Shown here piece by piece: positions 23,030-34,324 of a DNA stretch of 37,555 nt. The stretch comes from Lachnospiraceae bacterium. GTDB taxonomy: Bacteria > Bacillota > Clostridia > Lachnospirales > Lachnospiraceae. Below the pieces are notes generated by a model. The model saw only the letters and a program-made list of their open reading frames with translations. It had not been told where the DNA came from and did not search any database. Location: the NCBI GenBank assembly GCA_024692905.1, contig JAILLY010000020.1, positions 1 through 37,555 of the forward strand, in the 5' to 3' direction. Each line of letters opens with the position of its first letter. The first letter of the stretch is position 1. Both the position numbers and the translations under genes were made by a program.

Positions 23030-25207
23030 ATGAAACCTGATGAAGTGATAGTTTTGAGCAAACGGCAGAAAAGGTTGGGCATACCGCTTGTGTGTCTGAT
23101 CTTTATTTTTGTGCTTTCCGTATGCTTTATCAAGTACAGGAAGACAGACGTATATAGTTTTGACCTTAAAGATTGCGAACTTAAGTCGGCGGTGCTTGAA
23201 GACGGCGGGATACGTTCTGCCGGAGCATCGGATGATTTTTATTTTGCAACAAGGCCGTTCTTCCTGCCTGAGGGCGGATATACGCTTTTGATCACCTATT
23301 CATCCACGACGGATTCAAGGGTGCTCGTTCAGGGGAATAATGACTGTGTCTTTGATATAACACTCCCCGCAACCGCAGGTGAAACGGAGACTGTAACGGA
23401 CGGCCGCCTTATCCTTCCCCATGGTACCGATAAGGGCAAGCTTAAATTTTTTAACGAAAGTCAGGGGGATGTCTGCGTGAATGAGGTAAGGATGATCTCA
23501 GGAAGGCATATCTTCAGGGATTATCTTTTATTTGCTTTGATCGCAGCGGTTTTATGCCTGACCGCCGTGATCATCATCTTTAATTTCAACAGATTTAACC
23601 TGACATGGAGGGAACTGTCATATTTAGGACTTATGGCCATAGTGGTGACAGCGGTCAGCATACCTTTTCTTATAAGAGGGGATTATTATGAGACAGATAC
23701 CCAGGGGCACATGAAGCGTATAGAGGCGATAGCACAGGGCCTTAAGGACGGGCAGCTTCCTGTCCTTATAGGACCTAATTATGCCAATCAGTACGGCGAA
23801 CTTGTTGCATTGCAGCCGGGGCTGTTCTTATATATACCTGCGATCCTGCGGGTGCTTAATATATCGGTTCCCACGGCATATAATTTCTTTATGGTACTTA
23901 TAAACATAATGACGGCCGTCACTGTGTTTATTAGCGCCTTCAGGCTGTCCGATTCAAGGAAATGCGGTGCGGTTGCCGCGGTGTTCTATCTTATAGAGCC
24001 CTTCAGGCTTTTTGTGATGCTCAAGCTTGGGGCGGGCGCCGGTATGGGACTTGCACTTGTCTTCCTGCCGCTGCTTGCTGCCGGTATACTTACGACCCTG
24101 AACAGGGAAGGGAAGGGCTGGGGGCTTGTCGCGACCGGACTCTGGGGGCTTGCATGTTCTCATGTGCTCGGTTTTGTGCTTGCTGTCATCATAATGTTTG
24201 CTTGCATCCTGCTCCATATAAGAAAGCTCTTCGCCAAAGGGGTTTTTGTTTCCCTTATAAAGGCAGCCGTTCTGTTTGTCTGCCTGTCTGCCGGAACGCT
24301 TCTGCCGTTTGCGGGTTATTATTTCAGCGACTGGAACAGGGGAGCCCTTGCATGGACTGATTTTTATCATTTTGATGTGGAGTGGGATCGTGAAGCGCTA
24401 AATGTCATCGCTCTTTTGATCCTGATCTTCTGCTGTGCCCTTATAAGACGCAGGAAGGATATTTCAAAGACTGCCCGGCTGATGGTTGCGGGAGGATTTA
24501 TATTTACGTTGTTTGCCCTGCCTGTATTTCCCTGGTTCCTTTTTGAGAACATCAGTATCGTGGACAGTTTCCTTTCAATGATGCAGTATCCTTTAAGGTT
24601 CCATTTTGCGGCTGTTCCTTATGTTGCTTTCGCAGCGGCGTTTTGTTTGTGTCCGTATGAGGATGATGCACCGGCAAGGAGGGCGGCGGCTTATCATATA
24701 ACCGGTATTCTCGCGATCGGTGTGATAATAAGCGCATATTTTTATTATTCAAGACCGATGCTCTTTGACGATCCGGTGTCAGGTGAGATAAACACCGTTA
24801 TGGAGGATTATCTTCCCGGCGGAACGCTCACGGAGTGGTATGATACGGATACGGGTGAGTTTTCCGATTATGATCTTGTCGAGGCATTCTCATATTCCAA
24901 GAGATATACACATATTGACTGTACCTATACCGCTCATGCCGAGGGACAGTACATGGAATTCCCCCTGTTTTATTATAAGGGTTATAAGGCACATGACGGA
25001 ACCGGAGCACCGCTTCTTGTACAAAAGGGAGAGCATAACCGTGTAAGGGTATATCTTACCGCATCGGATAAGGAAGAGGAACTCCATGTAGGTTTTGAGG
25101 TTGACAGAGTGTATACCGTGGTATTTGTTTTTTCTCTGATCGCATGCGCGGTATGGTTTGCATATAAGTTTTTCTGTATTTTTAAGTCAAAATGTGTTAT
25201 TCTGTGA
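23030..25207 (+). CDS. Large membrane protein with PTPS-related/YfhO-type (GT-C-like) architecture, copy 1
   Basis: 725 residues. One N-terminal span (about 16-34) is followed by an extracytoplasmic beta-rich region (about 40-160), then about ten to eleven spans and a short extracytoplasmic C-terminal domain with a final span. The loop ETDTQGHMKRIEAIAQGLKD and LPVLIGPNYANQYGEL match the pattern of the bacterial '6-pyruvoyl-tetrahydropterin synthase related' membrane domain, a GT-C-like group. GGAGG (23021-23025) precedes ATG 23030. A clear paralog lies on the minus strand at 32099-34324; both end with the YMEFPLFYYKGY...AHD motif. Probably involved in surface glycan work; the true reaction is unknown. 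Confidence 0.7.
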   Translation: MKPDEVIVLSKRQKRLGIPLVCLIFIFVLSVCFIKYRKTDVYSFDLKDCELKSAVLEDGGIRSAGASDDFYFATRPFFLPEGGYTLLITYSSTTDSRVLVQGNNDCVFDITLPATAGETETVTDGRLILPHGTDKGKLKFFNESQGDVCVNEVRMISGRHIFRDYLLFALIAAVLCLTAVIIIFNFNRFNLTWRELSYLGLMAIVVTAVSIPFLIRGDYYETDTQGHMKRIEAIAQGLKDGQLPVLIGPNYANQYGELVALQPGLFLYIPAILRVLNISVPTAYNFFMVLINIMTAVTVFISAFRLSDSRKCGAVAAVFYLIEPFRLFVMLKLGAGAGMGLALVFLPLLAAGILTTLNREGKGWGLVATGLWGLACSHVLGFVLAVIIMFACILLHIRKLFAKGVFVSLIKAAVLFVCLSAGTLLPFAGYYFSDWNRGALAWTDFYHFDVEWDREALNVIALLILIFCCALIRRRKDISKTARLMVAGGFIFTLFALPVFPWFLFENISIVDSFLSMMQYPLRFHFAAVPYVAFAAAFCLCPYEDDAPARRAAAYHITGILAIGVIISAYFYYSRPMLFDDPVSGEINTVMEDYLPGGTLTEWYDTDTGEFSDYDLVEAFSYSKRYTHIDCTYTAHAEGQYMEFPLFYYKGYKAHDGTGAPLLVQKGEHNRVRVYLTASDKEEELHVGFEVDRVYTVVFVFSLIACAVWFAYKFFCIFKSKCVIL

Positions 25208-25253
25208 TAGATGGGGAGTTTTTTGAGTATTAAGGGGTTTGGGAGATACTTTT

Positions 25254-26615
25254 ATGGATTACAATAACGATACCAGCAGGATAAATCAGGGTATGCAGCG
25301 ACCGGGTACGAACGGTCCGATGAATCCGGGGATGCCGCCGCAGGGGATGCCTATGCAGGGAATGCCGGGAGGAATGCAGCGACCGGGTACAAACGGTCCG
25401 ATGAACCCGGGGATGCCGCCGCAGGGAATGCCGGGAGGAATGCAGCGGCCGGGTACAAACGGTCCGGTGAATCCGGGGATGCCGCCGCAGGGAATGCCTA
25501 TGCAGGGACCGGCCGGAAGGAATCCGCGCAGTGTCGGTATGAATACCGATGATATAAGTGCAAGGCTTGCGAAGGGAATCGAAGGCCGGATAAACAGTAA
25601 TAATAATGAACCGGACAGAAAGGAACGCCATGGTCTTTCGATAGAGAAGGATCTGACGGCGGACCGCAGTGCGGGATTTAAGCAGTTTGGTGAGGGCATG
25701 ATGCAAAAGTTTGCATCATTCAGGATCCCGAGCGGCGTTATCGAAGGCATATCCGGAGCATCACACCTTATATTCGGTGCGATACTCGTGCTATGCCTGA
25801 TCATTGCGCTCATTGCATTTGGTAAGGGTCATGGTTCATCGCGCAGGTCATATAATATACCCACGGATATGACAACATATTCGGGGATATTCTTAAATGC
25901 ATATAATAAGGCAGTGGCAGGATCGCTCACAGGTGCGGGTACACCTGCACCCGAGACGCTTTATGATGAGGACGGGACGGAGGTTCCGCCTGCACCCACT
26001 GCGATAGGTGAGGATCCGTTTAACTCTGATACGGGTTCCGATACGTCTGATACCGGTTCGGATGCACAGGATGATTCTTCATATCCGGTTTCTGATTCCG
26101 AGGTGACGGGAGCTGCAATGGTTCTTGACAGCGGGACTTCCGGACCCAGATCGCATAAGGATCTTTTATCGGAGCTCGATTCCGCGATCGGCTCCGGAGA
26201 TATCAAATCCGTAGGCGGTAAGATGGCATATGAAGATGAGAACGGCAATCTTAAGGGTTATCCCGAGTCCGTCGTCAGTCATTTCATTTCATATATGTCA
26301 GCCAATTCTGACAAGAAATCGGCATTAATGGCCGAACTTTCCGATGAGAAGTATTCGGCGCAGCATGACGAAGCCTATGTTGTCAAGCTCCCGCTTATCA
26401 AGTTCGTGGTAAACATGGGCTATGATAATACCACCGTATCCATTTCCGGTTTCTCGGATCAGGTGGTCAACGCGGGCCAGAGTGCCGACATCGCACCGCT
26501 CCTGCCGTGCATGTACACGCTTACGATCAGCAATCCGGAGTGGCCCGAAGCGACCACAAGGGATATCGAAGCAAACGTGAGTGAGCCGGCGATCTCTATC
26601 AATATCAAGCCTTAA
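25254..26615 (+). CDS. Single-span protein with Met/Gly/Pro tandem repeats, unknown function
   Basis: 453 residues from ATG 25254 (GGGAG at 25241-25245; an in-frame TTG at 25239 is less likely). Residues 14-86 are three imperfect repeats beginning MQRPGTNGP, low in charge and rich in Met, Pro and Gly. A charged cytoplasmic region follows, then one membrane span (171-190, HLIFGAILVLCLIIALIAFG) and an extracytoplasmic part. That part opens with a Ser/Asp/Thr-rich linker (NSDTGSDTSDTGSDAQDD) and ends in a domain of about 150 residues with beta-like segments (VVKLPLIKFVVNMGY, TVSISGFSDQVVNAG). I do not recognise the family. It sits just upstream of groES with its own downstream gap. Confidence 0.75.
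   Translation: MDYNNDTSRINQGMQRPGTNGPMNPGMPPQGMPMQGMPGGMQRPGTNGPMNPGMPPQGMPGGMQRPGTNGPVNPGMPPQGMPMQGPAGRNPRSVGMNTDDISARLAKGIEGRINSNNNEPDRKERHGLSIEKDLTADRSAGFKQFGEGMMQKFASFRIPSGVIEGISGASHLIFGAILVLCLIIALIAFGKGHGSSRRSYNIPTDMTTYSGIFLNAYNKAVAGSLTGAGTPAPETLYDEDGTEVPPAPTAIGEDPFNSDTGSDTSDTGSDAQDDSSYPVSDSEVTGAAMVLDSGTSGPRSHKDLLSELDSAIGSGDIKSVGGKMAYEDENGNLKGYPESVVSHFISYMSANSDKKSALMAELSDEKYSAQHDEAYVVKLPLIKFVVNMGYDNTTVSISGFSDQVVNAGQSADIAPLLPCMYTLTISNPEWPEATTRDIEANVSEPAISINIKP
25293..25508 (+). repeat. In-frame tandem repeat (three units)
   Basis: Unit 1 is 81 bases (25293-25373), unit 2 is 66 bases (25374-25439), and unit 3 starts at 25440 and runs to about 25508. Each begins ATGCAGCG(A/G)CCGGGTAC and encodes MQRPGTNGP(M/V)NPGMPPQGMP. 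Unit lengths differ by a five-codon PMQGM-type segment. Near-identity at the DNA level suggests recent slippage or unequal recombination. Confidence 0.9.
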
Positions 26616-27073: not shown

Positions 27074-28702
<1,629 letters not shown>

Positions 28703-28710
28703 GCGTAGCT

Positions 28711-28867
28711 ACGAGACAGGCTAAAGCATAAAATAACCACCGGATGTGTGCTTGCACACAGTCCGGTGGTTATTTTTATGCTTTAATCCGACGACAGCCG
28801 GATATGAGCGAAGCGCAGCGTAGCGAATAAGCCTGGCGCAGTGAAGCGAATGGCATGTCTCGTTTTT
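28711..28867. repeat. Nested inverted repeat and GC-rich short-repeat element
   Basis: ACGAGACA (28711-28718) is matched by TGTCTCGT (28856-28863), with further partial pairing, and so encloses the groEL terminator. The last arm runs into TTTTT (28863-28867). Between them, 28805-28850 is built from near-repeats of AGCGAAGCG, AGCGTAGCGAA and AGTGAAGCGAA. This looks like an intergenic repeat element, possibly dispersed in the genome, but only one copy is in the window. Confidence 0.55.
28722..28785 (+). terminator. Very long hairpin terminator after groEL
   Basis: The arms TAAAGCATAAAA...CACCGGATGTGTG and CACACAGTCCGGTGG...ATGCTTTA form a stem of nearly 30 pairs with two small bulges and a very short loop. 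The T-rich ATTTTTATG in the closing arm fits an intrinsic terminator that can work in both directions. It lies 20 bases after the groEL stop. Confidence 0.85.
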
Positions 28868-28869
28868 GA

Positions 28870-28898
28870 TTGACGAATCCTATTTCATAAAGTAAAAT
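28870..28898 (+). promoter_or_regulatory. Promoter of the XRE regulator gene
   Basis: -35 TTGACG (28870-28875), 17-base spacer, -10 TAAAAT (28893-28898). Both hexamers are 5 of 6 to consensus. Initiation is expected near 28905, just upstream of a perfect palindrome. Confidence 0.7.
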
Positions 28899-28913
28899 AT
28901 GAATAGTCGAATC

Positions 28914-28923
28914 CGACATGTCG
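28914..28923. promoter_or_regulatory. Palindrome, candidate operator for the XRE regulator
   Basis: CGACATGTCG is a perfect 10-base palindrome about ten bases after the predicted start of transcription and 34 bases before the ATG. Its place fits self-repression by the HTH protein. This is an inference from position and symmetry only. Confidence 0.4.
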
Positions 28924-28957
28924 TATTGAACGGTTCTCGCCAAAGGGGGCATCAGTT

Positions 28958-30226
28958 ATGAAGATATGGGAAAAGATATTCATATTAATGAAGGACAGGG
29001 GTATGTCCCAGAAGCAATTTGCCGGACTGACAGGCATATCCGAGAGTACGGTAAGCGATTGGAAGCGGAAACATCTTAACCCCGGGGCGGATAAGCTGCC
29101 GGCGATATGCAGGGCACTGGGCGTATCTGTGGAATCTCTGCTTGGGATGGATGCCGCAGATACGGACTATATTGCGGATGACGGTACGGTGATGCTTATT
29201 GAAAAATACAGGAATCTTTCACCGGATATGCAGCGAAGGCTTATGGCTTATATGGATGTGCTGCTGCGATCATCATCCGGGGAAACCGAACCTGACGATT
29301 CGAAAATGCTAAGTGCCGCCATTCCGACAGAAGGCATTGTCGATAAAGAATTTCAGATACGGAAAAATCTTGCCAGGAGGCTGAGAAAGCTGGCCAGGCT
29401 GTCACGCCTTACCATCAATGAGGATAGTCATGCATCGGGGCTGAATCTTCATTTATACAGATATCTTGATTTTATCGGACTTGACAAGCTTGATTTTATA
29501 AAGGACTATCTGTCTCATATCCAGCCGTATATGATAAGTGAATTCAAAAGTCAGGAGAAGTTTGATAATGCCATCTGTGTTTTGGATGAGTATTACAGGA
29601 TATCGGTCTATATAAAAGTGGATGCTACGAAGGGCGAAGAAGTCGTGGTATCTTTTCACGAAAACAATAAAGGTGGCCTGGCCAGGCAAAATCTGTTTAT
29701 CAAACGCGAGGGATTTGTTTATGTTTTTGCGGACTCCGTGGGATCACATGTCGAAGGCAGCGATAATTATTCAATAAATCTGTTCATAATGCGCGGTGTA
29801 AGGACATTTCCGCTAAATGTTGCGGCAGTCAGGTATGACGCTGATGGCTTTATGGTAAGGGCAGTCGATATAAATAACGCATTGATCGGTATCTCGAACC
29901 GATACCTCGAGGACCTGTATACCTCTGATCTTGATATTTCGGATATTGAACTTTTTTCCTCCCTGCAGCAGCTTTCCTTTACCTCTTTTGGGAATGATGT
30001 ATTCTCCAATATTTCAATCCTTATTGACAGTTTGCTGATCCAGAGGGATAGCATAAGCAGGCAGATCGCTGATGCGGCTTTGTGCATTTACTGCGGCAGT
30101 ATCGAACTTATGGAAAGTGATATAAAAGAACTGATTGAAACCCTCAGGATCCGTTTCTCGGTTAATTCAGTCAGGGTATTACCTCAGATACTTAAGAGGG
30201 TTGAGCTAAATCTGCTTCGGGGTTGA
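28958..30226 (+). CDS. XRE-family transcriptional regulator with unknown C-terminal domain
   Basis: 422 residues. Residues 1-65 are a Cro/C1-type DNA-binding domain (helix-turn-helix about 18-38: SQKQFAGLTGISESTVSDWK), complete with the usual PGADKLPAICRALGVSVESL ending. The remaining ~350 residues match no family I know. They include a basic helix (NLARRLRKLARLSR), a Tyr-rich segment (FIKDYLSHIQPYMISEF), a beta-like part (VYIKVDATKGEEVVVSF) and a helical end. This is much longer than a simple XRE repressor, so the C-terminus may sense a signal or a partner. AGGGGG precedes ATG 28958, and a good promoter and palindrome lie upstream. The next genes, on the same strand, could be its targets. 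Confidence 0.85.
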   Translation: MKIWEKIFILMKDRGMSQKQFAGLTGISESTVSDWKRKHLNPGADKLPAICRALGVSVESLLGMDAADTDYIADDGTVMLIEKYRNLSPDMQRRLMAYMDVLLRSSSGETEPDDSKMLSAAIPTEGIVDKEFQIRKNLARRLRKLARLSRLTINEDSHASGLNLHLYRYLDFIGLDKLDFIKDYLSHIQPYMISEFKSQEKFDNAICVLDEYYRISVYIKVDATKGEEVVVSFHENNKGGLARQNLFIKREGFVYVFADSVGSHVEGSDNYSINLFIMRGVRTFPLNVAAVRYDADGFMVRAVDINNALIGISNRYLEDLYTSDLDISDIELFSSLQQLSFTSFGNDVFSNISILIDSLLIQRDSISRQIADAALCIYCGSIELMESDIKELIETLRIRFSVNSVRVLPQILKRVELNLLRG

Positions 30227-30257
30227 GGTAAAAGCCATATCAGGGGCAAAAGATCTG

Positions 30258-30286
30258 TTGAAAATAATTACAACCGATGATAGAAT
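30258..30286 (+). promoter_or_regulatory. Promoter of the PIG-V-like gene
   Basis: -35 TTGAAA (30258-30263), 17-base spacer, -10 TAGAAT (30281-30286). Initiation near 30293 lies downstream of the ATG at 30277, which argues for the later start codon at 30322. Confidence 0.6.
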
Positions 30287-30321
30287 TTTTTAGAATAAAC
30301 ATTGTGGGAGATGATCTGCAC

Positions 30322-31473
30322 ATGAAAGAGCGGGTACTTAAGTCGGAAGATTTACGTATCATATTATATATTATGCTTATGTTTGTCGTCTCACGTACGA
30401 TCATGTACCTGATTTACAGAGGCATGTACGGAGACGGCAGTATTATGAACTGTATCCATGGGTTCAATATATGGGATGCAGAGTGGTACGAAGGATATGC
30501 CAAAGGCTTCTTAAACGGCCAGTTTCCATGGAATTACGACGGGGCCACAACGTGGGCTTTCTTTCCCCTCTTTCCGCTCATGCTCGCCGTAGCATATAGG
30601 GTTCTTCATTTTAAACTTGAAATACTCTTGATAGGAACCATCGTGAGTAATGTATGTTTTTTGCTTGCGGAATATATTGCTTATAAATATATCATGCTGA
30701 CCCGCAGATCAATAAAGGTAGCCTATGCTTTTATTACGTTCATGTCGCTGGGGTTATATGCATTTTATTATACGATAACCTATACTGAGGCACTTTATCT
30801 GTTCTTTCTCGTCCTCTCTTTTTACTTTATGAAAAAAGAGCAATACATCTTTATGGGAATTTCCGGTGCATTTTTGTCTGCGACAAGAAATACCGGCGTT
30901 ATGTTTGTTTTTGCGATTCTTATATGGAGGATCATGGTCTATGTTAAGGAGAAGGGAAAGGAAGGTAATGTCGGTGATTTCATCATTTCCAATTTAAAGA
31001 ATGAGAAACTCGTATTGGGGACGGTAATGGTGCCGGCGGGAATTTTTGCATACATCCTTTTCCTTATCCATAAGACCGGTGACGGTTTTGCTTTTGTTCA
31101 TGTCCAAAAGGTATGGGGAAGAGACTATAAGGGATTCTTTAATGTATTGGTTCACAGCTTTCGGGATCATTTTCCACCGGATTATCTGGGGCTTTTTACC
31201 TTTGTTTCTTTTTTGTTGATATTATATCTGATAGTAAGATATAAAAATTTTGATGAAATGTTCATACCTGTGATTGTTCTGCTCATGGGAGGATCTTCAA
31301 GTTTTATGTCAATGCCCAGATTTATGATAGGATCATTCAGTTTGGTACTTGGTTTTGCTGAAGAGTACGCTAAGATGAACAAGGTTGCTAAAGTCGTCGT
31401 TGCTGCAGGTTTTTTTGCATTCGAACTGGTCCTTATTGAACAATGGGTGACACCAAACAGTCTTTTATGGTGA
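30322..31473 (+). CDS. PIG-V-like membrane mannosyltransferase
   Basis: 383 residues from ATG 30322; an in-frame ATG at 30277 exists but lies upstream of the predicted transcription start. GTGGGAG (30304-30310) is a weak ribosome site. Features of the PIG-V/GPI mannosyltransferase II family are the early NIWDAEWYEGYAKGFL loop with its catalytic-type Asp, TTWAFFPLFPLMLA, TYTEALYLFFLVLSFY, and GAFLSATRNTGVMFVFAI. About nine membrane spans follow the family layout. Bacterial members are thought to use polyprenyl-phosphate sugars to build extracytoplasmic glycans. The gene is visibly AT-richer than groEL or addA. The next gene follows after 4 bases and is probably functionally linked. Confidence 0.78.
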   Translation: MKERVLKSEDLRIILYIMLMFVVSRTIMYLIYRGMYGDGSIMNCIHGFNIWDAEWYEGYAKGFLNGQFPWNYDGATTWAFFPLFPLMLAVAYRVLHFKLEILLIGTIVSNVCFLLAEYIAYKYIMLTRRSIKVAYAFITFMSLGLYAFYYTITYTEALYLFFLVLSFYFMKKEQYIFMGISGAFLSATRNTGVMFVFAILIWRIMVYVKEKGKEGNVGDFIISNLKNEKLVLGTVMVPAGIFAYILFLIHKTGDGFAFVHVQKVWGRDYKGFFNVLVHSFRDHFPPDYLGLFTFVSFLLILYLIVRYKNFDEMFIPVIVLLMGGSSSFMSMPRFMIGSFSLVLGFAEEYAKMNKVAKVVVAAGFFAFELVLIEQWVTPNSLLW

Positions 31474-31477
31474 GAAA

Positions 31478-32077
31478 ATGAAAGATGACTTAACGGTAAA
31501 TAGTACAATAAAAATGAAGATACTCATATATTCTTTGGTAGTGTTCCTGCTTATAGGATATATCTGCATCTTTATGAAAGGTATGGATCATTCCCGGCTT
31601 GATGAAGCATACCGCATGTTTTATATCGATGATTCGCTCAAATATTGGGCCGACATGAAGGAACTTAATACGTACAGAGATAATACCGTGTTCAGGTATA
31701 ATGAGTCCGGAAATTTCCGAAATCTTGGGAAGGGTTGGCTGTTTGTTAATGAAAATGCTACCTGGTGCGTAGGAAACGAATCGGATTTTTATCTTTATAT
31801 CGACGAACCGGATAAGCCTCATGAAGTTGTGATCGATCTGGCTGAGGATATGGGTTATAAGAACTATATTACAGTAAATGGAGTTTATCAAGACGATCTT
31901 ACGATAAGTGATAACATTGCAACGGCCATTATCTCAACAAACATGCATGAAGGTCTTAACAGAATAGCCATATGTACGGATGAGACGGTTAAGGATGTGG
32001 ATGAAAACAACAAAAACTTATACCGTGAGGACGGGCGTCATAACATGTACATAAAGAGTATAATTGTCCGTTACTGA
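31478..32077 (+). CDS. Single-span extracytoplasmic protein, unknown function
   Basis: 199 residues with one N-terminal membrane span (about 14-33, MKILIYSLVVFLLIGYICIF) and a ~160-residue domain predicted outside the cell. That domain is rich in beta-like segments (DFYLYIDEPDKPHEVVIDL, YITVNGVYQDDLTISDNIAT) and ends in NMYIKSIIVRY. This resembles carbohydrate-binding-like sandwich domains, but no family is recognised. It begins 4 bases after the PIG-V-like stop, so the pair is likely translated together. The region is AT-rich like its partner. Its stop codon is directly followed by the GroEL-tail-like sequence, which marks a probable junction. Confidence 0.7.
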   Translation: MKDDLTVNSTIKMKILIYSLVVFLLIGYICIFMKGMDHSRLDEAYRMFYIDDSLKYWADMKELNTYRDNTVFRYNESGNFRNLGKGWLFVNENATWCVGNESDFYLYIDEPDKPHEVVIDLAEDMGYKNYITVNGVYQDDLTISDNIATAIISTNMHEGLNRIAICTDETVKDVDENNKNLYREDGRHNMYIKSIIVRY

Positions 32078-32079
32078 TT

Positions 32080-32136
32080 CCGGTGCCCTGTGCTCCGGCT
32101 ATGCCCGCCGGCGGAATGGGCGGAATGGGAATGTAA
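32080..32136 (+). pseudogene. Remnant of a second groEL 3' end (GroEL C-terminal tail)
   Basis: In frame this short stretch reads PVPCAPAMPAGGMGGMGM and then TAA (32134-32136). That is a typical GroEL C-terminal tail, close to the resident [16 protein letters not shown]. At the DNA level 32092-32112 matches the end of groEL at 18 of 21 bases by eye. There is no upstream groEL body: the frame leads back into the unrelated 31478-32077 gene. It is best read as a displaced or donated 3' end left by insertion or recombination at groEL. The low-complexity GGAATGG repeats leave some chance of coincidence. Confidence 0.65.
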
Positions 32137-34324
32137 TAAGGCCCAGCAATCCGATCAATGAGATCAGGGCACATACCCGGAACGCCGGGTGCATCTTAAA
32201 TTCAATATCTATAACCTGGGGCTCGTTACTTTTAACGAGCCCTATTGTTATGCGGTTGTGATCGCTTATCATGATGGGAAGCGGGTTCCCATTAGCGTCA
32301 TGAGCTTCATAACCCTTGTAATAAAACAAAGGAAATTCCATGTAGTTATCATCCGTAAGGCAGGTATATTCATAATGTATCGAGGTTCCGTTCTTTATAT
32401 AGGCGATATTGTTAACGCTGTCCCAGTCATAGCAGTTGGGAACATTTGACTGATAGTATTCAACCTTGCTGCCGGCCGGAAGATAACCTATCTGTTTATA
32501 ATATATATCTCCTGTGGCCCGGTCGTATACGCTAATATCGCACGCACTTGTCTGTTGATAAGCGGTATAGACGCCGGCGATCACACAGAATATCATGAGT
32601 GCGGTCATCGCGGGATTGATCCTGAAAGCTGAAGACGGAGCATCTTTTGCATCGGCTGATGATGCTTTGGAGGCTTGCATCATATCCGAAATGAGCATAC
32701 CGATTCCGAGACTTATCGCAGCCGTCCCGGCGAGCATGAACCTTTCTGCAAACTGGAACATTCCCAGTTTGTCGGCTATAAATCCAATCTTTTTGATAAG
32801 ACCCCACGGAAAGAGTTTGGTTGACATAAAATACAGAACAAATCCTGCAATGAGAAGATATCTGCAGTAGATATGCTTCCCGGCTTTTTTGATCACAACC
32901 AGGAGTATGCATACGGCAAGAAGAATCAGGTGATATACACCGTTTCCGGAGATGAGATCGGATATGAGCGGCTTGAAACTTGCAAAGAAATCAAGCTTCA
33001 TACTCTTAGTGTTAAGTCCGCTTCCGTAATAATACAAAAACGGTACGATGGTCGACAGCCCGAGTACTGCGGTCAGAAGAGCCGCCTTTATGATCGAAAG
33101 CAGAGGCTCCCTGATATTTCTCTCATGCCTTTTTACGATCGATATGATAATACAGAATAAAGCGGTTATGGTGCATATTATGATCCCGAGTGCGAGCGAT
33201 AATATATGTGAGAATAACAGTCCTGTTACGCCTATTGAAAGCAGATACCACCGCTTTCCTTTAAGGAAGAATATATCATACATCGATGCAAATATGACCG
33301 GGAAAAACAGCATGGACAGCCCCATTCCGAATGCCTGCCCGCCTCCGTACATAACATACATCCTGTAAGGGAAGAAACAGTATATTACAGCTGAAATTAG
33401 CGAGGCTTTGGCAGATCCGGTTATAAGCCTGGTACAGAAAAACATGATAAGCAGTGCCGCGGCATTTATGATAATAAGCATGGTACCGTGCGATGCGAGC
33501 AAAGATACGCCGAATTTGCGCAGAAGCCCCGGCAGATAAAGGAATTTGTCGGGATAAATACAGCTTAATTCTCCGTAATCATTGCAGTAATTTGAATATA
33601 TGACAGTCGGGATCCTGTGAGCCGTTATAGCTGTGCTCACACCATCGATGCGCATAAGATGCGGCCTTGTATCCGTGCCCATCCAGATATGGTCGTAGAA
33701 AGCCGGGAAGGATACAAGGATGCATACGGTGCTGAGTATCCCGCTTATTATCCATTGTTCACGTCCGAATTTAAAATGTTTCTTAAGTATCGTAATAAGC
33801 ACCGGAAGCAGGAGAGCGATCAATACAGTGACCAGCATAAAGTATTCATAATCCGTGTAGATAGGACGTGAGGACGATAAACTGATATTATTGATCGTAA
33901 GAGTCCCGGCGCCCTTATATATCAGCCAGATCCTGAAGTTATCACTCGATGGCCATACGGAAAAAGGCACTGTGATATTATCCTGTCCTGCCGGAAGAGT
34001 CACATAATCCTCGGTATTGCTGTTTGCGGCATAATGGACTGTATTGTCCGAATCCGAAGAATAATCGATCGAAAGTAAATAATCGCCGCTTCTTAACTGG
34101 GTTCCGGGTGAGGCGGAGAATACGTTTGAAAACCCGGAGGATTCGTCAATGGAAAGATAAGAACCGTCTTCGGGCCGCGTTCCCGCGTCGAGTGAAAACC
34201 GGTTAAAGTCATATGAATATGAGTATTCCTCGGATCTTTTTTTGTTGAAATATATAAGAAGAGCAGCCGTCAGTAATATATATATAACAACTGCAATGTA
34301 TTTTCTGGTATTCTTTTCGTTCAT
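32099..34324 (-). CDS. Large membrane protein with PTPS-related/YfhO-type (GT-C-like) architecture, copy 2
   Basis: 741 residues and a clear paralog of the 23030-25207 product. It has an N-terminal span, an extracytoplasmic beta-rich region with Ser/Asp-rich segments, then about ten spans. The loop WMGTDTRPHLMRIDGVSTAI is followed by YSNYCNDYGELSCIYPDKFL, and the end carries YMEFPLFYYKGYEAHDANG as in copy 1. GGAGG (complement of 34331-34336) precedes the ATG. The last residues (FPFRPFRRRA) are encoded by the complement of the GroEL-tail remnant, so the natural C-terminus may have been altered at this junction. Likely role in surface glycan assembly; the substrate is unknown. Confidence 0.72.
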   Translation of the reverse strand: MNEKNTRKYIAVVIYILLTAALLIYFNKKRSEEYSYSYDFNRFSLDAGTRPEDGSYLSIDESSGFSNVFSASPGTQLRSGDYLLSIDYSSDSDNTVHYAANSNTEDYVTLPAGQDNITVPFSVWPSSDNFRIWLIYKGAGTLTINNISLSSSRPIYTDYEYFMLVTVLIALLLPVLITILKKHFKFGREQWIISGILSTVCILVSFPAFYDHIWMGTDTRPHLMRIDGVSTAITAHRIPTVIYSNYCNDYGELSCIYPDKFLYLPGLLRKFGVSLLASHGTMLIIINAAALLIMFFCTRLITGSAKASLISAVIYCFFPYRMYVMYGGGQAFGMGLSMLFFPVIFASMYDIFFLKGKRWYLLSIGVTGLLFSHILSLALGIIICTITALFCIIISIVKRHERNIREPLLSIIKAALLTAVLGLSTIVPFLYYYGSGLNTKSMKLDFFASFKPLISDLISGNGVYHLILLAVCILLVVIKKAGKHIYCRYLLIAGFVLYFMSTKLFPWGLIKKIGFIADKLGMFQFAERFMLAGTAAISLGIGMLISDMMQASKASSADAKDAPSSAFRINPAMTALMIFCVIAGVYTAYQQTSACDISVYDRATGDIYYKQIGYLPAGSKVEYYQSNVPNCYDWDSVNNIAYIKNGTSIHYEYTCLTDDNYMEFPLFYYKGYEAHDANGNPLPIMISDHNRITIGLVKSNEPQVIDIEFKMHPAFRVCALISLIGLLGLITFPFRPFRRRA

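Follow-up and report, generated by a model that had tools for sequence, protein, structure and literature searches.

A second, cut-off groEL 3' end beyond a three-gene block in a Lachnospiraceae genome: a probable scar of recombination at groEL

Why should the 3' end of groEL, an essential chaperonin gene, occur a second time at some distance beyond an intact copy of the same gene? The locus that raises this question lies in a window of 37,555 nucleotides, the whole stretch of DNA analysed here, which is contig C8 of a Lachnospiraceae genome (G000) of 2.62 Mb in 137 contigs with 92.33% completeness and 3.9% contamination. The host bacterium has rumen relatives. The features on which the argument turns, in the order of the forward strand, are:

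27080 to 28702, plus strand: resident groEL, intact, 540 aa (Pfam Cpn60_TCP1, 1.2e-86; the sole groEL match in its own genome)
28703 to 28865, plus strand: 3' flank of groEL, a terminator hairpin inside a larger nested hairpin (from folding, done without a shuffle control, and from DNA matches)
28958 to 30226, plus strand: XRE-type regulator, 422 aa, with the HTH at its N-terminus (HTH_26, 4.5e-11; HTH_3, 8.3e-11)
30277 to 31473, plus strand: membrane protein, PIG-V/GT-C mannosyltransferase-like, GC 38.8% (a relative matches PF04188)
31478 to 32077, plus strand: linked protein of unknown function, GC 37.8% (a 29% relative in genome G014)
32078 to 32091, no strand: proposed illegitimate junction, the 14 bases between the stop of the preceding gene and the groEL remnant
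32092 to 32136, plus strand: orphan groEL 3' end, 14 codons APAMPAGGMGGMGM plus TAA (groEL-end matches)
32099 to 34324, minus strand: membrane protein, 741 aa, its last residues and stop lying on the strand opposite the groEL remnant

The orphan tail comprises 45 bases, about 3.4 kb past the resident groEL and 14 bases after the gene at 31478-32077, with no groEL body upstream and with flanks unrelated to groEL. Read from the DNA, 32080-32136 translates as PVPCAPAMPAGGMGGMGM followed by a stop. Upstream, the open frame reaches back no further than 32044, and the only start codons it offers are a single GTG and the tail's own ATGs; we take it for a fragment and not a gene. The terminator-in-nested-hairpin flank that follows the resident groEL is absent behind the orphan tail, as read from the DNA. 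The stretch 32092-32136 is groEL-derived and it is truncated.

Its closest counterparts were sought among groEL 3' ends, which were readable in 29 genomes (28 genus relatives and G000 itself), two of which, G046 and G042, end in ...TPAMPAGGMGGMGM. The orphan tail agrees with these two at 39/45 and 38/45 bases (38/42 and 37/42 over the last 42 bases), respectively, and with the groEL end of a distant genome, L100 (titled Eubacterium sp.), at 41/45. Over the 45 bases, third codon positions and the stop codon account for five of the six differences from G046 and six of the seven from G042, and the one left over is in both cases a first-position change that gives Ala for Thr; all four differences from L100 are at third positions. 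This pattern suggests that the orphan tail was recently part of a working groEL, and 45 bases are too few to name its source. Between the resident and orphan tails the longest identical run is 8 bases. A first-pass annotation of this DNA had counted 18 of 21 bases shared between the two, a count that holds for 28658-28678 against 32092-32112, the resident coordinates given at the time (28665-28685, which match at 5/21) being off by 7.

When the groEL end of G046 was used as a query, the orphan site matched at 38/42 and the next best place in the window at 28/42, and the best match in 40 simulated windows (first-order Markov) was 26/42. With the resident tail as query, the gapped score was 45 at the orphan site versus 24 at best in the rest of the window. 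Across 916 kb of other DNA, made up of overlapping loci, with the window excluded along with six loci from its contig (five of them containing the site), and taking the best stretch per locus and strand, identities of at least 30/42 occurred only at groEL ends among the 25 top-ranking stretches. Pattern searches gave the same picture. The GGMGGMGM form, with up to two mismatches, was found at five places in the 37 genus genomes, namely the orphan site, the groEL ends of G042, G046 and G015, and a weak second place in G015 (contig C72, two mismatches) that is not at groEL; the GGGMGGMM form was found at 24 places in 24 of these genomes, all 24 at their own groEL-end coordinates. Among 397 family genomes, sampled evenly from a larger set, exact patterns of both forms occurred at 44 places in 43 genomes, with two only in G000, and all 30 of the 44 places that were fetched proved to be groEL ends; the other 354 genomes gave no match, and a stray tail of a different form would go unseen there. 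In a collection of 84,980 species, which may omit the window's own genome, the exact tail-plus-stop matches were groEL ends in nine of nine cases. A chance match was rejected on the pattern counts, the simulated windows and the uniqueness among the family genomes. The orphan groEL remnant is real and rare, and the second GroEL-type tail that the first-pass annotation had placed at 32080-32136, in frame to TAA, is borne out by the alignments and the pattern searches alike.

The gene at 32099-34324 ends in about TFPFRPFRRRA-stop, encoded opposite the remnant. A search of 24 genus relatives (leaving out G041-G052, including G042 and G046) and of 16 more distant genomes found one close relative, on contig C68 of G013 (55-57% identity), which ends in LLYIVKMDFSR. 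An end conserved among close homologues, envisaged at first pass as a counter-case to a displaced tail, was not seen and was rejected on this one close relative. The gene is itself related to that at 23030-25207, the two encoding large membrane proteins (~30% identical, no Pfam match) that flank groESL; relatives of the 23030-25207 protein lie near groEL in G008, G011, G021 and G044.

On the near side, the homologous anchor gene has been left whole. Block-wise identities along the groEL body reveal no visible switch before the tail, and the nearer species are ~85% identical, so the power to see a mosaic is low. DNA matches to the groEL 3' flank were reported in 10 of the 37 genus genomes (G000 included), all adjoining groEL. 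The outer stem of the hairpin (28700-28865) includes the groEL stop codon in G046, G013 and G014, and its arms differ among species but still pair; the nested hairpin is not clearly seen in G017, G024 and G006, and part of its DNA is tandemly repeated in G008. Upstream of groES, 25239-26615 encodes a protein with a repeated Met/Gly/Pro-rich N-terminus, relatives of which, varying in length, lie near groEL in most relatives fetched.

The three genes between the two tails were not found together in any of the 36 other genus genomes, some of which are incomplete. Full-length relatives of the XRE gene (67-74%) occur in four of the 36, on contigs that lack groEL and among neighbours that differ, and the pair formed by the PIG-V-like gene and the linked gene occurs in one (G014), behind a GT2 gene on a contig other than that of groEL. 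The GC content of the XRE gene is 44.1%, compared to 51.1% for groEL and 46.6% for the window. The PIG-V-like protein has no Pfam match at 0.001 and a weak NCBIfam match (NF046093) far below cut-off; its 36-37% relative in G014 matches PF04188 at 4.7e-05. The linked protein aligns to the last residue of its G014 relative, one residue short of its own end, suggesting that its gene is near-complete and that the block was joined close behind it. Searches of the three proteins, including Pfam, NCBIfam and PHROG, recognised no integrase in the block, and no plasmid gene was recognised there; the XRE HTH gave weak transposase matches (NF033545 at 0.0016, below cut-off, and phrog_9366 at 0.0098; 25 of its 26 PHROG matches were inspected). 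Taken together, these gene comparisons support the view that the block behaves like an insert, as the first-pass annotation had proposed; the deep conservation of the block that would have told otherwise was not seen in the 36 other genus genomes. The ~420-aa XRE family has different neighbours in each genome (G044:C113, G003:C10, G008:C24 and G048:C116); close to it in G003 and G044 lie divergently oriented genes for related proteins of 354-355 aa (33% identical).

All 12 relatives examined that have more than 1 kb of sequence behind groEL carry genes other than the block there. Their 21 nearby downstream proteins include several GT2, MBOAT and sugar-nucleotide enzymes, alongside DUF5672, CotH, VTC and GGDEF proteins, and six have no Pfam match; no integrase was found among the 21, with some short ORFs left unscanned. 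Judging from these gene contents, the DNA behind groEL appears to be a variable region beside a fixed gene, several of its genes being of a putative surface-sugar or acyl-transfer type. A 13th relative, G014, shows that the region is not always of the surface type: on visual inspection, its groEL seems to be followed by what we take to be nucleotide-synthesis genes. Five of the 29 readable groEL contigs end less than 500 bases after groEL versus 0.83 expected (P 0.0017, Poisson), a post hoc statistic based on rounded contig counts, which fits strain variation at this point but would also fit assembly trouble caused by a hairpin. An empty site, a pre-insertion form or a donor arrangement was not found in the 37 genus genomes, several of which are incomplete or have contigs that end at groEL.

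Most likely, DNA was spliced in at the 3' end of groEL. For type VI secretion system (T6SS) clusters of Vibrio cholerae, one-anchor insertions have been proposed to displace old 3' ends, and the same is said to be hypothesized for Rhs, according to the available part of that report (PMC5361080). The layout seen here, with an intact gene, new DNA and a stranded 3' end preceded by an unrelated junction, is the one that was explained in the T6SS clusters by a proposed pair of junctions, one homologous and one illegitimate. As far as that partial account goes, the locus shares with T6SS and Rhs displacement a conserved upstream anchor, incoming DNA that brings its own 3' end and an old 3' part left downstream, and it differs in that the displaced parts there are toxin and immunity 3' parts thought to be selected, whereas here they are 45 bases of a chaperonin Gly-Met tail with no likely function. 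We therefore read the orphan tail as a cut-off groEL 3' end, the scar of groEL-anchored recombination with an illegitimate far junction, and give this reading a probability of roughly 0.6. Incoming DNA with its own groEL end and further genes would have recombined with the chromosome, the first junction being a normal crossover inside groEL where the genes of the two species are alike, so that groEL stayed whole. The second junction would have been illegitimate, joining a point immediately behind the linked gene (32077) to one barely within the tail of the other copy of groEL, and would thereby have stranded the last 14 codons beyond the three-gene block. The usual groEL flank would have been lost on the far side, so that the minus-strand gene now extends into the stranded tail and finds its stop within it. 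Two observations correspond to these steps: the remnant of another 3' end is present on the far side of the new DNA, at 32092-32136, and the far junction is non-homologous, passing from a near-complete gene unrelated to groEL through 14 bases into the tail. The direction, the donor, the order and number of events and the enzymes we infer; the remnant has a breakpoint on either side, which may require more than a single event.

Which of the two tails is native was approached with trees of groEL and of groES-groEL, both built without the tail and used instead of an rpoB species tree as rpoB had no match in G000. G000 groups with G046 and G042 in both (88/93 for groEL and 94/92 for groES-groEL, neither starred); the trees disagree on what is nearest to it (G042 alone versus G046 and G042 together), and G046 and G042 are mutual nearest in the groES-groEL tree (84/67). 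Since these two species carry the GGMGGMGM form, the grouping favours the orphan tail as the native form and with it the earlier proposal that groEL owes its present tail to the insert. A grouping of G000 with G021 and G044, which share its GAG tail, was rejected (p 6e-31). Several points nevertheless count against the orphan tail as native and make that proposal a tentative one: a grouping of G000 with G013 and G017 was not rejected (p 0.091), G046 pairs with G042, a single base change turns the common GGG tail into the GAG form, and the orphan tail is nearer to that of L100 than to those of the two sister species.

Other processes could leave a similar arrangement. Intact groEL, block and old tail is the layout that site-specific insertion leaves, the block then being a small or decayed integrative element with its att site at the groEL 3' end, which would have supplied a replacement end and left the old one on the far side. 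The staphylococcal island SeCISE48 integrates at the groEL 3' end, as the available part of its description has it (PMC8125051), and the XRE HTH resembles phage repressors (PHROG) and mobile-element regulators (NCBIfam RstR and TrbA, below cut-off). However, neither the block nor the 21 downstream proteins of the 12 relatives (six without a Pfam match) yielded a recognised integrase, and the tails share only 8 identical bases in a row; integration by a recombinase into the groEL 3' end, as entertained at first pass, is thus weak, and we consider it unlikely. Two scans of viral contigs gave no match to the GGMGGMGM form and one to the other form (L138), the sole viral contig with a groEL tail, in which an intact groEL is followed by tRNA genes and then phage genes and no second tail was found. 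A viral element using the groEL tail as its attachment site was rejected as a candidate, the tRNA genes of L138 separating groEL from the phage genes.

An assembly error joining pieces of two strains draws some credit from the 137 contigs, 92.33% completeness and 3.9% contamination of the genome and from the contigs of five of 29 genomes that break right after groEL. Misjoins usually arise where the joined pieces have words in common, though, and these 45 bases sit between two sequences unrelated to groEL; moreover, the minus-strand gene keeps an open frame with its stop inside the remnant, and we hold a misassembly to be unlikely in its turn. Campbell-type integration would likewise account for the layout and for the truncated start of the far tail: a non-replicating circle that bore the three genes and a short piece of the groEL 3' end would have entered through a single RecA-mediated crossover within the tail. 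For RecA, however, some 45 bases in which no identical run exceeds 8 make a very short substrate, and no plasmid gene was recognised in the block. Linear DNA in E. coli can circularise by ligation and integrate by single crossing-over, according to the part of the report available (PMC3240628), and we regard such an event here as improbable. Finally, the likeness could stem from a chance or convergent C-terminus of the minus-strand gene. This is hardly credible in view of the 38/42 identity with plus-frame differences mostly at third positions, a C-terminus that is not conserved in the G013 relative and a second tail match in only one of 397 genomes, even if it is commonplace for a membrane helix to be followed by a basic C-terminus.

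The locus can also be compared with two kinds of known element. CIMEs are integrase-less elements lying between attL and attR, and the block is like them in having cargo without recombination genes between two related ends; it is unlike them in lacking a long identical repeat, and the relatives examined showed no related integrative element at the site. In Staphylococcus epidermidis, SeCISE48 carries an integrase and its att site overlaps the last 18 bp of groEL (PMC8125051), and another staphylococcal island, SeRIfusB, is placed at or downstream of groEL, a statement of location only (PMC10094739), both in the available portions of these reports. As described there, DNA is likewise inserted directly after an intact groEL, but in contrast to SeCISE48 no integrase is recognised here and the longest shared stretch is 8 bases versus an 18 bp att site.

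Searches that covered the open-access literature and not subscription papers turned up no earlier description of a displaced groEL tail. We most likely see a known kind of process, the displacement of a 3' end, in an unusual place, a housekeeping gene: displaced 3' ends have been described for toxin genes, and the stranded end of an essential chaperonin gene would be a scar of the same kind in a place where selection on the tail is not expected. Scars of this kind could act as neutral markers that record the place and manner in which foreign DNA was joined to a chromosome. A broader and rather doubtful extension is that the groEL 3' end is a standing anchor for the exchange of cassettes, often of surface genes, in this genus, with Gly-Met tails swapped between species as a by-product and the nested hairpin perhaps provoking breaks. 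GroEL C-termini, and groEL as a typing marker near its end, may be recombinant, and the locus suggests that the exchange of neighbouring genes can reshuffle even a housekeeping gene at its end.
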